This document shows positions 28,996 through 36,173 of a stretch of 64,000 bases of DNA, piece after piece; within the stretch, counting starts at the first letter, position 1, and every line of letters begins with the position of its first letter. The DNA is from Saprospiraceae bacterium. GTDB lineage: Bacteria > Bacteroidota > Bacteroidia > Chitinophagales > Saprospiraceae. The translations under genes were made by a program, and so were the position numbers. Where the stretch lies: contig JANQWK010000019.1 in NCBI GenBank assembly GCA_030729925.1, positions 1 through 64,000 on the forward strand. Direction: 5' to 3'. Below the pieces are notes generated by a model that saw only the letters and a program-made list of their open reading frames with translations, was not told the origin of the DNA and made no database searches.

Positions 28996-30633
28996 ATGGC
29001 AAATCGTTATCAGGCTGAGGTGATTGTGGCAGGTGCCGGCTTATCGGGCATGGTCGCCGCACTGGAGCTGCTGGATCAAGGCAAGCGGGTATTGTTGGTT
29101 GACCGGGACACCGAGGAAAACATAGGCGGCCTTGCAGTATGGGCTTTCGGCGGAATGTTTTTTGTGGATAGTGCGCACCAGCGAAAAGCGGGTATCCGGG
29201 ATTCGACCGAACTGGCGCTGAAGGACTGGTTTAGTTTTGCAGCCTACGAACCCGGGGAGGTTTGGGGACCGCGCTGGGCAGAGCAGTTTGTTCATTTTAC
29301 GACCCCCCATGTATATCAATGGCTACGGTCGCTCAAGATCAATTTTTTTCCCGTTATCCACTGGGTAGAACGAGGCTTGTTCCAACCGGGTAACTCGGTT
29401 CCGCGCTTCCACTTGCTTTGGGGCACCGGTTATGAGTTGATCCGCGTACTGAAAGAGCGGCTCTACCAACATCCCAACAGGGCAAAATTACAGCTGTGTT
29501 TCAGACACCGGGTGACAGAAATTCAAGTAAGCGAGGGTAAAGTAAGTGGTCTGCAGGGTTGGCGGGAAGACCTGGATCAGCCTTTCGAGGCGACCGCAGA
29601 TACCGTGATCATTGCTTCCGGAGGAATCGGGGGAAATATAGATAAGATTAAAGCCAATTGGGAGCCTGCCTGGGGAACTCCACCGCAAGATATTCTCAAC
29701 GGCGCCCATCCCTATGGTTCGGGTGATCTCCACGATGCCTCAGCAAAAATCAATGGCCATGTGGTACACCTGGAAAAGCAGTGGAATTATGCTGCCGGAG
29801 TTCGGCATCCACAGCCCCGCTACGACAACCACGGCCTGAGTCTGGTGCCCTGTAAGTCGGCACTTTGGCTCAATTATCGCGGACAACGCATGGGGCCTGT
29901 GCCACTGGTTACCGGCTACGATACCCGATACCTGGTGGAAAGGATTTGTCAGGAAGAAAAAAAGTACTCCTGGCAGGTGCTCAACCAAAAAATTGCCTAC
30001 AAGGAGTTTGCCATCTCCGGCTCCGAGCATAACCCGGCTGTTCGCGACAAAAAACTGCTGCAGTTTATCGGCAATGTGCTGTTTGGCAACAAAAAACTGG
30101 TAGATGACATGCTGGACACTTGTCCCGATTTTGTGGTAGCTGGCAGTCTCGAAGAACTTACCGATCGGATGAATGCGCTTACCGGAACCAACGATGTATC
30201 GCTCGACTTCCTGCGGGAAAGCATCCAACAGTACGATGCACAAATCGAACGTGGTCCCGCCTTCCACAATGATGATCAGCTGCGCCGCATTGCGCATGCC
30301 CGCCAATACCGCGGCGATAAAGCCCGAACCAGCAAATTTCAAAAAATCAACGACAAGAACGCCTATCCGCTTATCGCCATTCACAACCGCATCCTTAGCC
30401 GCAAATCCCTGGGAGGTATCCAGACCGATCTACAGTGCAGGGTACTGCAAAAACCCGATGCCCAGGGAAATCAATCCGCCATAGAAGGACTTTTTGCCGT
30501 AGGCGAGGCAGCAGGCTTCGGTGGGGGAGGCATACATGGCAAGCGATCACTTGAAGGTACTTTTTTGGCCGGGTGTGTGCTTACCGGCCGCATCGCGGCA
30601 AAAACGATCGGCGGTGAAGCCCTTTCTTTGTAA
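28996..30633 (+). CDS. FAD-binding dehydrogenase (KSTD/fumarate reductase fold)
   Basis: Flavoprotein of 545 residues. The N-terminus binds FAD (VIVAGAGLSGMVAALELLDQG, then LLVDRD). The end (GLFAVGEAAGFGGGGIHGKRSLEGTFLAGCVLTGRIAA) is typical of the 3-ketosteroid dehydrogenase / flavocytochrome c family. A large central substrate domain lies between. Many such genes are annotated only as FAD-binding dehydrogenase; the substrate is not known. No signal peptide, so it is cytosolic. The S9 peptidase starts 23 bases after its stop and likely shares its transcript. Confidence 0.85.
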   Translation: MANRYQAEVIVAGAGLSGMVAALELLDQGKRVLLVDRDTEENIGGLAVWAFGGMFFVDSAHQRKAGIRDSTELALKDWFSFAAYEPGEVWGPRWAEQFVHFTTPHVYQWLRSLKINFFPVIHWVERGLFQPGNSVPRFHLLWGTGYELIRVLKERLYQHPNRAKLQLCFRHRVTEIQVSEGKVSGLQGWREDLDQPFEATADTVIIASGGIGGNIDKIKANWEPAWGTPPQDILNGAHPYGSGDLHDASAKINGHVVHLEKQWNYAAGVRHPQPRYDNHGLSLVPCKSALWLNYRGQRMGPVPLVTGYDTRYLVERICQEEKKYSWQVLNQKIAYKEFAISGSEHNPAVRDKKLLQFIGNVLFGNKKLVDDMLDTCPDFVVAGSLEELTDRMNALTGTNDVSLDFLRESIQQYDAQIERGPAFHNDDQLRRIAHARQYRGDKARTSKFQKINDKNAYPLIAIHNRILSRKSLGGIQTDLQCRVLQKPDAQGNQSAIEGLFAVGEAAGFGGGGIHGKRSLEGTFLAGCVLTGRIAAKTIGGEALSL

Positions 30634-32693: not shown

Positions 32694-32768
32694 GGTTACG
32701 TTTGGATAGCCTGAAAGTATTAACAAACGAATTTTCACGTGCAAGGCATCTTAAGGTGCCTTGCACCT
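32694..32768 (+). repeat. Two-helix intergenic repeat, copy 5 (diverged, downstream of S9 peptidase)
   Basis: Diverged copy starting GGTTACGTTTGG 25 bases after the peptidase stop. The usual GGTTAC/GTAATC helix is lost, but CGTTTG (32699-32704) can pair with CAAACG (32725-32730) in nearly the same place. The hairpin (32737-32768) keeps its TTAA loop, with one C-C mismatch and a U-G pair at a position where other copies are Watson-Crick. Confidence 0.7.
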
Positions 32769-32918: not shown

Positions 32919-33707
32919 ATGGGATCAGACCTATCGGTTACCTTCGAGAAGAAAGGCGCTGTCGGCATCATTAGTCTCAATCGCCCTGAGAAATACAACG
33001 GGGTAAACACAGAACTTTTGCACCAACTCAAGCACCACCTGGAGCACTGCCATCAGGATAGTTCTATTCGCTCAGTAATCCTAAGGGGTGAGGGTCAGGG
33101 ATTTTGCGGCGGAGCCGACCTTGAAAACTTTGCAGCGGGTATTGAGCCGGAGTACGTTCGGGACTATCTGATCGAACATTACCAGCCTTTATTACGCCTG
33201 ATGGTCACTTTACCCAAACCCATTATCGGAGCGGTACATGGTTCAGCGGCAGGAGTAGGGGCAGCACTGGCACTCGCCTGCGACCTGCGCATCATGGCAG
33301 AAGATGCCAATATCCGCTATGCCTTCATCAATATTGCCTTGGGGCCGGACGGTGGAGCATCCTGGTTGCTGGCAAGGTTAGTGGGCTATGCCAGGGCTTT
33401 CGAAATTGCGGTGGAAGGAAAAAAAATTGACGCCAAGACTTGCCTCCAACTGGGGTTAACCAACCGAATCGCCGTGGCGGGCAATCTGATGTCAGATGCG
33501 CTGCACTGGGCAACCGAACTTGCCGAAAGGCCAACACTGGCGGTTGCGCTTACTAAAGATGCGCTACACCAGTCTCTTAACCAGGATATTTACCAAAACA
33601 TAGCGCTGGAGGCCGAAAACCAGGTGCGTGCCTTCAAAAGTAGCGACTTCCAAGAAGGTGTACATGCTTTTTTGCAAAAGCGACAACCTCGGTTTACAGG
33701 ATCCTGA
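32919..33707 (+). CDS. Enoyl-CoA hydratase/isomerase family protein (PaaG-like)
   Basis: Crotonase-fold enzyme of 262 residues acting on an acyl-CoA. The oxyanion-hole segments are FCGGADLENF and GSAAGVGAALALACDLRI. The catalytic region reads ALGPDGGASWLLARLVG, with Asp and no hydratase Glu, as in PaaG-type isomerases. So isomerase activity on a double bond is as likely as hydration. It is followed 29 bases later by the acyl-CoA dehydrogenase and then the APH-type kinase, suggesting a joint acyl-CoA pathway. A TTGACT-17-TATAGA sequence lies at 32851-32879, about 40 bases before the start; its relevance in Bacteroidota is doubtful. Confidence 0.88.
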   Translation: MGSDLSVTFEKKGAVGIISLNRPEKYNGVNTELLHQLKHHLEHCHQDSSIRSVILRGEGQGFCGGADLENFAAGIEPEYVRDYLIEHYQPLLRLMVTLPKPIIGAVHGSAAGVGAALALACDLRIMAEDANIRYAFINIALGPDGGASWLLARLVGYARAFEIAVEGKKIDAKTCLQLGLTNRIAVAGNLMSDALHWATELAERPTLAVALTKDALHQSLNQDIYQNIALEAENQVRAFKSSDFQEGVHAFLQKRQPRFTGS

Positions 33708-33736
33708 TTCTATTCAACACAAAAATTGACAATAAA

Positions 33737-34954
33737 GTGGATAATCCTTTTATGACCCCAAGACTGGCTGAGCTGCTGCCAGCCATCAAAGCATTTATTG
33801 TTGAAGAGTTGTATCCGCTCGAACAACAGGCGCTTTCTACCGGTTTTTACGAGCTACAACCTGTCCTCGATGAAAAAAGGGCGAAAGTGAAGGCCTTAGG
33901 GTGGTGGCTCCCCCAGGTTCCTCAGAAATGGGGCGGCATGGGGCTGAGTTTGCTCGAATTCGGTATCCTGAGCGAATACCTGGCCAAGACGCTATATGGA
34001 CATTACATTTTCAATTGCCAGGCTCCCGATGCAGGAAATATGGAGATCCTCATGGAACATGCCTCCGAAGACCAGCAGGAGCGGTTTTTAAAGCCACTCC
34101 TCAACGGCGATATCCGGAGCTGTTTCGCCATGACCGAACCCGAGTTTGCCGGATCCAACCCGATTCAAATGGGAGCCCGAGGCACCTTATCGGATGGCTC
34201 CTACCGGGTTACCGGCCATAAGTGGTACACCACAGGCGCCGATGGGGCAAGTTTTGCCGTGGTCATGTGCCTCACCGATCCCGATCACACCAATCCCTAT
34301 CAACGAGCTAGCCAGATTATTGTGCCCACTGACACCCCCGGTTTTCAGCTATTGCGCAACATCCCCGTGATGGGCGAAAGAGGCGAAGGATGGCTAAGTC
34401 ATGGAGAGGTCATGTTCGACTGTGTGGTGCCTCAGGATCACTTGTTGGGGGAAGCAGGGTCGGGATTTGCGATGGCTCAGGAAAGGCTCGGCCCAGGCCG
34501 CATCCATCACTGCATGCGCTGGATAGGCATCAGCGAAAGAGCGCTGGAGCTCCTATGCCACAGAGCAGCTACCCGCTCTCTGGGACAGGGGAAACTACTC
34601 GCCCATAAACAAAGTGTACAGAATTGGATCGCTGAAAGTCGCGCAGAAATTGATGCTGCACGACTAATGGTTCTCAATACCGCCCGACGTATAGATGCGG
34701 AAGGTGCTTATGCCGCCAGAATAGATGTTTCGGTGATTAAATTCTTTGTGGCCAATGTATTGCAACAAGTCCTGGACAGGGCCATACAAGCTCATGGCGG
34801 CCTGGGAATGTGCGATGATCTCCCGCTCGCGTTTTGGTTCAGACACGAACGCGCGGCAAGAATTTACGATGGCGCCGATGAGGTGCACAAAGAGCGCGTT
34901 GCTAAATATATCCTAAAGGATTATTTGCCCGACACAAAAAACAGTCATGGATAA
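33737..34954 (+). CDS. Acyl-CoA dehydrogenase family protein (FadE11/ACAD11-like)
   Basis: Flavin enzyme of 405 residues. The acyl-CoA/FAD motifs are AMTEPEFAGSNPIQMGARG and KWYTTGADGASFAVVMC. The C-terminal part reads QAHGGLGMCDDLPLAFWFRHERAARIYDGADEVHKERVA. The YDGADEVH form carries Asp where many dehydrogenases carry the catalytic Glu, as in ACAD10/11-like proteins. The start is a GTG at 33737 (MDNPFMTPRL); an ATG five codons on is possible. Its end overlaps the APH-type kinase start by eight bases. In animals both activities are fused in ACAD11, so this pair may be a split version. Confidence 0.88.
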   Translation: MDNPFMTPRLAELLPAIKAFIVEELYPLEQQALSTGFYELQPVLDEKRAKVKALGWWLPQVPQKWGGMGLSLLEFGILSEYLAKTLYGHYIFNCQAPDAGNMEILMEHASEDQQERFLKPLLNGDIRSCFAMTEPEFAGSNPIQMGARGTLSDGSYRVTGHKWYTTGADGASFAVVMCLTDPDHTNPYQRASQIIVPTDTPGFQLLRNIPVMGERGEGWLSHGEVMFDCVVPQDHLLGEAGSGFAMAQERLGPGRIHHCMRWIGISERALELLCHRAATRSLGQGKLLAHKQSVQNWIAESRAEIDAARLMVLNTARRIDAEGAYAARIDVSVIKFFVANVLQQVLDRAIQAHGGLGMCDDLPLAFWFRHERAARIYDGADEVHKERVAKYILKDYLPDTKNSHG

Positions 34955-36041
34955 AATACCTCCAATAGATACCGCAGCCGAAGTCAGACCAGGGGAGGAG
35001 CTTCCCCTGGAACTGCTCCGGGATTTTTTGTCCAATAATTTCCCAGGTAACGAAAATTCCGACTTAAGGGTCAGACAGTTTCCCAAAGGTTTTTCCAACC
35101 TTACCTACCTCATCGAATGGGGGAGTAGAGACTTCATCCTCAGGCGCCCCCCCTTTGGCGCAAATGTCAAAACCGCACACGACATGGGGCGGGAGTTCAG
35201 AATGCTGAGCCGACTTAAACCCGTATTTGCCAAGGTACCCCAACCCCTGCTCTATTGCGAAGACGATACCGTGATCGGTGCCCCTTTCTACCTGATGGAA
35301 CGGGTGAATGGCGTCATTCTGCGAGCAGGAATGCCACAACAGGCCTATCCCAATGCCAGTCAGATGGAGGCTGTCGCCAAAAAATTTATCCAAAATCTGG
35401 CCCAACTACACAGTCTCGATATCCATACAAGTGGATTGGAAGATCTCGGAAAACCCGAAGGCTATGCAGAACGGCAAGTGCAAGGATGGATCAAACGCTA
35501 CCACGGTTCCCAAACCCATGAAATATCAGCTATGGATTTTACGGCAGACTGGCTCCTGAGCCATATTCCCCCTTCGGGAAAACCAGCCCTGATTCATAAT
35601 GATTACAAATACGATAACCTGGTGCTCGATCCCGACGACCTTTCCCATATCAAAGCAGTCCTGGATTGGGAAATGGCAACCATCGGGGACCCCCTGATGG
35701 ATCTGGGTACTAGCTTGGCCTATTGGGTCACAGCCGAAGACCCGGACTTTATGAAAGGCCTTAACCTCAATATCAGCCACCTTCCCGGTAATCCCGATCG
35801 CACCACACTCGCCAACTGGTACTTCGAAGCTACCGGACAGCCTCCCGTCAACCTGATTTTTTACTACGTTTTTGGGTTGTACAAAATAGCTGTCATCATC
35901 CAGCAAATCTTCTATCGCTACGAAAAAGGCTACACCCGGGATCCCAGATTTGCACAAATCATCGAAGGCGTAAAAGCATACGGAAAAGCCGCACAGTTGG
36001 CTATTGAAAAACAGCGCATGGACAAGCTGTTCCAGAATTAA
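34947..36041 (+). CDS. APH-type phosphotransferase (ACAD11 kinase-domain like)
   Basis: Protein-kinase-like phosphotransferase of 364 residues. Brenner-type catalytic loop LIHNDYKYDNLVLDP near residue 212 and the metal-binding AVLDWEMATIGDPLMDLGTSLAYW near 232. It starts within the end of the acyl-CoA dehydrogenase gene, so it is translationally coupled. This domain resembles the ACAD10/ACAD11 N-terminal kinase domain and LvaA of levulinate degradation, which phosphorylate 4-hydroxyacyl-CoA. I infer the same activity here from the pairing, not from the residues alone. It is not an antibiotic-resistance gene in this setting. Confidence 0.86.
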   Translation: MDKIPPIDTAAEVRPGEELPLELLRDFLSNNFPGNENSDLRVRQFPKGFSNLTYLIEWGSRDFILRRPPFGANVKTAHDMGREFRMLSRLKPVFAKVPQPLLYCEDDTVIGAPFYLMERVNGVILRAGMPQQAYPNASQMEAVAKKFIQNLAQLHSLDIHTSGLEDLGKPEGYAERQVQGWIKRYHGSQTHEISAMDFTADWLLSHIPPSGKPALIHNDYKYDNLVLDPDDLSHIKAVLDWEMATIGDPLMDLGTSLAYWVTAEDPDFMKGLNLNISHLPGNPDRTTLANWYFEATGQPPVNLIFYYVFGLYKIAVIIQQIFYRYEKGYTRDPRFAQIIEGVKAYGKAAQLAIEKQRMDKLFQN

Positions 36042-36101: not shown

Positions 36102-36173
36102 AGGTGCAAGGCACCTTAAAGTGCCTTGCACCTGATTACCCCTATTAATACCTCGGCAACCCAAAAGGTAACC
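36102..36173 (-). repeat. Two-helix intergenic repeat, copy 6 (downstream of OmpP1/FadL gene)
   Basis: On the minus strand GGTTACCTTT begins 48 bases after the porin stop; its partner AGGGGTAATC allows ten pairs with three G-U. The hairpin is at 36102-36133 with the U-G pair next to the TTAA loop. It lies between convergent genes (kinase ends 36041, porin ends 36221). Confidence 0.85.

Follow-up and report, generated by a model that had tools for sequence, protein, structure and literature searches.

A three-gene operon of a Saprospiraceae bacterium as a likely entry of 4-hydroxyacyl-CoAs into beta-oxidation through a phosphorylated intermediate

We analyzed a 64,000-nucleotide stretch of DNA from a Saprospiraceae bacterium (contig JANQWK010000019.1 of assembly GCA_030729925.1; hereafter the window), which carries a three-gene operon encoding a crotonase, a protein with the acyl-CoA dehydrogenase (ACAD) fold and an APH-fold kinase (Table 1). 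We consider it likely that this operon is an entry of 4-hydroxy (gamma-hydroxy) acyl-CoAs into beta-oxidation by way of a 4-phosphoacyl-CoA. A sequence-only reading of this DNA had already named the three gene families, and the Pfam matches agree: ECH_1 (3.6e-55), the N-terminal, middle and C-terminal domains of Acyl-CoA_dh (C-terminal 9e-35) and APH (4e-51). It had also placed the kinase start inside the end of the ACAD gene, as the open reading frames confirm. The crotonase and ACAD genes are separated by 29 nt, a peptidase gene lies 249 nt upstream of the operon and a convergent gene follows it. The order crotonase-ACAD-kinase is kept in the sister genome, the only other genome of the genus searched, with identities of 81%, 84% and 72%, respectively; there, the ACAD and kinase genes abut without overlap.

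Table 1. Features of the operon and its boundaries (positions in the window)
Feature	Positions	Strand	Basis
PaaG-like crotonase, 262 aa; isomerase-type active site, predicted delta3/delta2-enoyl-CoA isomerase	32919..33707	+	Pfam, PDB, residues, clade
Crotonase Asp144, aligned with catalytic Asp136 of T. thermophilus PaaG	33348..33350	+	alignment; role from PMC7497051
ACAD-fold protein, 405 aa, GTG start; HCMR (ACAD10/11, LvaC) group, type A clade	33737..34954	+	Pfam, PDB, residues, trees, model
Arg250, equivalent of phosphate-binding Arg626 of mouse ACAD11	34484..34486	+	alignment; function from PMC12440821
HCMR motif, His258-Arg261, equivalent of mouse ACAD11 His634-Arg637	34508..34519	+	alignment; function from PMC12440821
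Asp378, equivalent of catalytic base Asp753 of mouse ACAD11 (Glu in ordinary ACADs)	34868..34870	+	alignment
Overlap of ACAD end and kinase start, 8 nt	34947..34954	+	open reading frames; ACAD stop 34952-34954
APH-fold kinase, 364 aa, ATG start; predicted 4-hydroxyacyl-CoA kinase	34947..36041	+	Pfam, PDB, residues, model
Kinase Arg176, aligned with ACAD11 Arg176 (modelled CoA contact)	35472..35474	+	alignment; PMC12440821
Kinase catalytic Asp219, equivalent of ACAD11 Asp220	35601..35603	+	alignment
28-bp dispersed palindrome, copy upstream of operon; boundary, outside the pathway	32739..32766		repeat search
Copy of the same palindrome downstream of operon	36104..36131		repeat search

The best solved relatives of the window ACAD by sequence are 4hr3 (3e-83) and ACAD11 (2e-77). 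In mouse ACAD11, R626, H634 and R637 are modelled as binders of the 4-phosphate and D753 is described as the base; the ACAD step of that enzyme suffered most when Ala or Leu took the place of R626, H634 or R637 (PMC12440821). The window protein carries equivalents of these four residues and also of H597 and R631, and its Asp378 opens the DGADEVH motif (residues 378-384) that the sequence-only reading had pointed out. We searched 119 genomes of the window's genus, family or order (hereafter the relatives), and the equivalents of R626/H634/R637, D753, H597 and R631 are kept in all 45 of their HCMR-type ACADs, namely 15 of type A (own genome included) and 30 of type B, as defined below. The key residues are likewise kept in six ACADs from plasmid records. 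The four ordinary ACADs of the own genome that were aligned (five found, L007 left out) present a Glu base and none of R626/H634/R637. The predicted model of the window ACAD (pLDDT, the predicted local distance difference test, of 92.0) matched 4hr3 with a Z score of 50.9, human ACAD11 with 49.6 and mouse ACAD11 with 49.2, against at most 41.8 for other ACADs, so that Z is 7 to 9 higher for the ACAD11 group. The HCMR group separates from ordinary ACADs with a support of 100 in both of our ACAD trees, although the outgroup branches are long. By its sequence, the window ACAD is a member of the ACAD10/11-LvaC (HCMR) group. Elsewhere in this group, three ACADs (L188, L197 and L189) present one of six key residues altered (Ala in place of H597 in two, Tyr in place of H634 in one).

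These residues also bear on the simplest alternative, an ordinary acyl-CoA dehydrogenase encoded merely beside an unrelated small-molecule kinase. All NCBIfam matches of both proteins fall under the curated cut-offs, which speaks for it, but Asp replaces the Glu base, the HCMR/Arg set is present, ACAD10 and ACAD11, which bear that residue set, are reported as inactive on saturated acyl-CoAs (PMC12440821), and kinase and ACAD co-occur across the 119 genomes. This explanation was ruled out on the active-site residues and appears very improbable.

With a threshold of E ≤ 1e-60, the ACAD was found in 45 of the 119 relatives, as two classes. Type A (15 genomes, own included) is 54-100% identical to the window ACAD and type B (30 genomes) 37-43%; identity to mouse ACAD11 is 38% for the window ACAD and 53-54% for the two type-B members measured. 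Type A forms a separate clade (support 98 in the smaller tree and 99 in the larger one, 43 rows), and type B groups with animal ACAD11, 4hr3 and other bacterial enzymes (48-row clade, support 99). The window ACAD falls outside the clade of animal ACAD11 and its bacterial orthologues. The description of this protein as ACAD11-like from sequence alone therefore holds for the shared key residues but not for clade membership or overall identity. The fork joining the type-A, ACAD11-type and smaller clades lacks resolution in either tree. The smaller tree omits L074 (a cut copy of L103) and the ACADs of L053 and L055. The trees contain no LvaA or LvaC sequence of P. putida KT2440; because LvaC is described as 56-62% identical to ACAD10/11 (PMC11342911), we infer that it belongs with the ACAD11-type clade. 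Outside both main clades stands a deep, mainly actinobacterial clade of HCMR-type ACADs (L113, L161, L162, L163, L165, L166 and L168; 7 rows, support 100). None of the 119 genomes carries both ACAD types (chance 0.009 if independent, with kinship ignored).

We also considered named loci, the best 80 of a longer list from one named-genome scan, partly picked by the pattern GPGRIHHC. Among them, type A occurs in Bacteroidota, Chloroflexota, Acidobacteriota, Myxococcota, Thermodesulfobacteriota, Spirochaetota, Planctomycetota, Pseudomonadota and one Bacillota-labelled metagenome-assembled genome, and a plasmid search added Gemmatimonadota. Many of these phylum labels rest on metagenome-assembled genomes and may err. 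Judged by them and by the trees, type A spans about nine phyla and is distinct from the ACAD11 clade, which is new here: a search by title and abstract, with few subscription journals covered, found no published description of the type-A clade, its kinase sharing or the crotonase clade described below.

The kinase has 9o56 (2e-95) and then the ACAD11 kinase domain (8e-51) as best solved relatives by sequence; these two and 3dxp rank far above aminoglycoside kinases. The catalytic and metal motifs HxDxxxxN and DWE are present as HNDYKYDN and DWE, and each of the 52 aligned kinases, among them the mouse domain and 9o56, has the equivalents of D220, N225 and R176. The pair Arg82-Glu83 (the Arg preceding the alphaC Glu) is invariant in the 25 kinases of set A2; the R86 that PMC12440821 places beside the alphaC Glu mismatches the chain numbering used here. 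An aminoglycoside-resistance kinase was ruled out, the NCBIfam APH models scoring far below cut-off. When the kinase model (pLDDT 92.1) was compared by fold with solved structures, 3dxp ranked first (Z 32.0), followed by 25-hydroxysteroid kinase (Z 27.8, 20% identity). The latter enzyme takes part in an ATP-dependent dehydration in anaerobic cholesterol breakdown (PMC8449060), and its match favors the idea that the operon performs the proposed kinase and lyase chemistry on a special substrate, such as a hydroxylated sterol side chain, a terpenoid or an aromatic-derived acyl-CoA. The occurrence of the kinase with pairs of pimeloyl-CoA-dehydrogenase-like ACADs, MaoC and thiolase in some relatives points the same way, as does a FAD gene upstream of the operon (28996-30633) with distant similarity to ketosteroid dehydrogenases. 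However, sequence similarity to 25-hydroxysteroid kinase is marginal (E 3.5e-4) relative to the ACAD11 kinase domain, the peptidase gene separates the FAD gene from the operon, and the FAD gene is not among the upstream genes in the sister genome. We regard such a special substrate as quite unlikely.

The pairing of kinase and ACAD had been read as meaningful from this single locus, and the relatives bear this out. The kinase was found in 47 of the 119 genomes: 43 of the 45 with the ACAD versus 4 of the 74 others (P = 3e-25; Fisher test). Two weak kinase matches (G029 and G040) were counted as present; without them the table reads 42/3/3/71 (P = 7e-25). All 15 type-A genomes and 28 of the 30 type-B genomes possess the kinase. 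ACAD and kinase are direct neighbours in 12 of the 39 loci with a kinase called, and in 7 of the 15 type-A relatives. Among the matches listed for the named type-A loci, a kinase is present in 26 of 34. In 18 of these 26 the two matches are no more than 212 nt apart, three times on the opposite strand; of the 8 loci without a kinase, 3 end about 1 kb or less downstream. Histidine phosphatase and short-chain dehydrogenase/reductase (SDR) genes often join the kinase-ACAD clusters elsewhere. An SDR in the own genome (G000:C60) that is 58% identical to one beside a type-A ACAD stands apart from the operon, next to what is presumably a formate-tetrahydrofolate ligase gene.

The phylogeny of the kinases indicates how closely the partners are tied. 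All 16 type-A kinases, counting the one from a plasmid, fall into a single 37-row clade (support 95), which they share with 19 kinases of type-B genomes and 2 of genomes that lack both ACAD types; the remaining type-B kinases form further clades. At least five changes of the A/B label are needed on this tree, from which L105 was dropped, and the starred branches force three. A single clade for the type-A kinases was rejected (P = 3e-5; approximately unbiased (AU) test without L113; the tested group was chosen once the first tree had been inspected). The rejection holds without the five two-kinase genomes (P = 1e-5, with L113 and the kinases L041, L046, L048, L051 and L066 dropped) and also when only adjacent pairs are considered (P = 9e-4). 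Because kinases sharing a label still tend to group on the tree, we posit one or more clear swaps and not free mixing. The clearest case is contig L050, which is also named-record locus L126, one of the 34 type-A loci above: its type-A ACAD adjoins a kinase nested among partners of type B (support 98-99). On this phylogeny, kinases follow the ACAD type in part only. Because at least one adjacent pair has swapped partners, both ACAD types probably take the product of the same kinase.

The first gene of the operon encodes a crotonase in which both hydratase Glu positions, which we take to be those of the rat Glu144/Glu164 pair, hold other residues (Ala116 and Phe136). The own-genome paralogue L117 presents Glu at both. 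The closest PDB sequences are those of PaaG (6sl9 and 3hrx; 41% identity to PaaG), a 1,2-epoxyphenylacetyl-CoA isomerase that works through Asp136 and also performs delta3/delta2-enoyl-CoA isomerisation (PMC7497051). Since the hydratase Glu pair is absent and the PaaG Asp is present, the window protein looks like an isomerase, and we predict a delta3/delta2-enoyl-CoA isomerase. The sequence-only reading had called it PaaG-like, which suits the active site and the closest structures but does not extend to PaaG itself: the score against the equivalog model TIGR02280 is 212.7 for a cut-off of 345.15, no paa genes occur among the operon neighbours scanned, and the protein falls in a clade with nine members sampled (support 96), from which the PaaG-like paralogue common in the order is separate.

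Members of this crotonase clade often adjoin AbfD, the kinase or a type-A ACAD. Outside the genus, 3 of 5 have the kinase or AbfD no more than about 1.5 kb away, versus 0 of 27 ordinary PaaG-like crotonases (P = 0.002). The five comprise three from the 119-genome search and two from a 60-genome search, and the 27 comprise 26 from the 60-genome search and the own-genome paralogue L115. This count excludes L140 and L142, which were fetched through their ACADs, and scores L247, with a 25% match to an ordinary ACAD nearby, as none. The clade neighbour AbfD (4-hydroxybutyryl-CoA dehydratase/vinylacetyl-CoA delta-isomerase) removes the 4-oxygen of 4-hydroxyacyl-CoA as a radical Fe-S flavoenzyme, without ATP. 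It was found in 12 of the 119 relatives, 11 of them among the 45 genomes with the ACAD (P = 8e-5). Contig L140 (uncultured Bacteroidetes AG-390-P11) carries three SDR genes, MaoC, the crotonase, a type-A ACAD, AbfD, the kinase and two further ACADs; the best solved relatives of its AbfD are the vinylacetyl-CoA delta-isomerase 6vjr (2.7e-228) and 1u8v. In L055 the order is thiolase, MaoC, crotonase, histidine phosphatase, kinase and two pimeloyl-CoA-dehydrogenase-like ACADs. The kinase occurs beside ACAD pairs in L053, L055 and L140, with histidine phosphatase, MaoC or thiolase, which suggests a further kinase-dependent acyl-CoA route.

For the crotonase step, the competing view is that the enzyme is a hydratase making 3-hydroxyacyl-CoA, or has nothing to do with the pathway. 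In its favor, the clade is small, among the relatives the crotonase is part of the operon in this genus alone, the clade member L121 stands without any partner and L225, on a short contig, has only a histidine phosphatase. Against this view are Ala116 and Phe136 at the hydratase positions with the PaaG Asp kept, as well as the neighbour count outside the genus. The hydratase was rejected on account of the missing Glu pair; taken as a whole, we find this view doubtful.

We propose that the kinase would transfer the gamma-phosphate of ATP to the 4-hydroxyl of a 4-hydroxyacyl-CoA. The FAD protein would hold the resulting 4-phosphoacyl-CoA through Arg250, His258 and Arg261, and Asp378 would take the C2 proton. 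Transient reduction and reoxidation of FAD would accompany expulsion of the phosphate, giving an enoyl-CoA with no net oxidation. The crotonase would then shift any delta3 double bond to delta2, and the ordinary beta-oxidation enzymes would take the delta2-enoyl-CoA. The suggested substrates and chemistry of the kinase and ACAD draw on work on ACAD10/11 and LvaA/LvaC; those of the crotonase draw on its active site and neighbours only. ACAD10 and ACAD11 are described as acting on 4-hydroxyacyl-CoA that is first phosphorylated and then loses phosphate in an FAD-dependent, acceptor-free elimination to 2-trans-enoyl-CoA (PMC11342911, PMC12440821), and parts of ACAD10 can be replaced by Burkholderia orthologues (PMC11342911). 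The same studies contradict the 3-hydroxyacyl-CoA product that the sequence-only reading had expected: the 3-hydroxy compound forms when the enoyl-CoA is hydrated afterwards, perhaps through a contaminating enzyme (PMC11342911, PMC12440821).

The operon shares with animal ACAD10/ACAD11 an APH-fold kinase and an ACAD with the Asp base, Arg626 and HCMR, and these enzymes are among the best solved relatives. Unlike them, it encodes kinase and ACAD as two genes rather than a fusion, its ACAD sits in the separate clade, and it includes a crotonase. Separate kinase and ACAD genes are found for LvaA and LvaC in the levulinate operon of P. putida, and the residues match those reported for LvaC (PMC12440821, PMC11342911). 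The lva operon differs in its composition (lvaABCDE), as the window operon is limited to three genes, with no counterpart of lvaD or lvaE; no search aimed at LvaB was made. P. citronellolis is described as having no lvaB, with a histidine phosphatase beside its LvaA homologue instead (PMC6692424).

The gamma-hydroxyacyl-CoA route anticipated by the sequence-only reading is thus favored by the ACAD and kinase residues, the co-occurrence, the neighbours and the ACAD model, and several observations weigh against it. The fold search does not single out ACAD11 for the kinase, whose model scores a Z of 20.7 over 229 residues with ACAD11, below 3dxp, 25-hydroxysteroid kinase and several other kinases. 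With an identity of 38% to ACAD11, the window ACAD may act on another substrate. In 6 of the 15 type-A relatives the kinase and ACAD genes are widely separated or do not share a contig, and in 2 more one gene lies between them. A second, more distant kinase (34-39% identity) in G015, G046, G051, G064 and G084, one of which is type A, makes the kinase of the ACAD ambiguous there. The motif count in the 80 named loci is not independent, because these were partly selected by GPGRIHHC. The crotonase, found at E ≤ 1e-70 in 5 of the 119 genomes (own included), joins the operon only in this genus among the relatives. AbfD tracks type B in the relatives (11 of 30 versus 0 of 15 for type A) and has no match in the own genome, and a search for the histidine phosphatase, made without a positive control, gave no match there either. 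As a variant of the proposed scheme, type-A ACADs might be a second, functionally separate solution that expels the phosphate but releases 3-enoyl-CoA (compare the vinylacetyl-CoA of AbfD), with the clade-specific crotonase finishing the shift to 2-enoyl-CoA, and type-A and ACAD11-type enzymes might have been swapped more than once behind the same kinase; we consider this unlikely.

The phosphate-tag chemistry itself is already known. If the proposed pathway is correct, this route for 4-hydroxy acids, so far described in animals and Pseudomonas/Burkholderia, would also be run by a second deep ACAD branch in Bacteroidota, Chloroflexota, Acidobacteriota, Myxococcota, Thermodesulfobacteriota and other phyla, in which common annotation reads just 'acyl-CoA dehydrogenase' and 'phosphotransferase'. 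The two branches would offer a natural comparison for how the ACAD fold becomes a phosphate-expelling isomerase, the crotonase clade would gain a candidate role, and caution would be due before calling such kinases drug-resistance genes.

Pseudomonas also possesses HCMR-type ACAD loci (L170, L173, L176-L181, L184-L186, L194 and L200). No kinase was found in their flanks up to 6 kb, and a retry of 12 of them at E ≤ 1 yielded two short weak matches only; these loci therefore apparently lie outside any lva operon. In the window, positions 28996-30633 encode a FAD-binding dehydrogenase of the PRK12834 family (531.7 bits for a cut-off of 476). The operon is bounded on both sides by copies of a near-perfect 28-bp palindrome, GTGCAAGGCACCTTAAGGTGCCTTGCAC, a dispersed element resembling repetitive extragenic palindromic (REP) sequences. 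In the sister genome, a regular expression for it gave no match across the 19 kb surrounding the operon. Eight copies are present in the window versus 0 expected, beginning at 51, 7923, 17517, 22433, 32739, 36104, 40968 and 55975. The 3.74-Mb genome contains 188 copies at ≤3 mismatches, compared with 0 for the reversed control.

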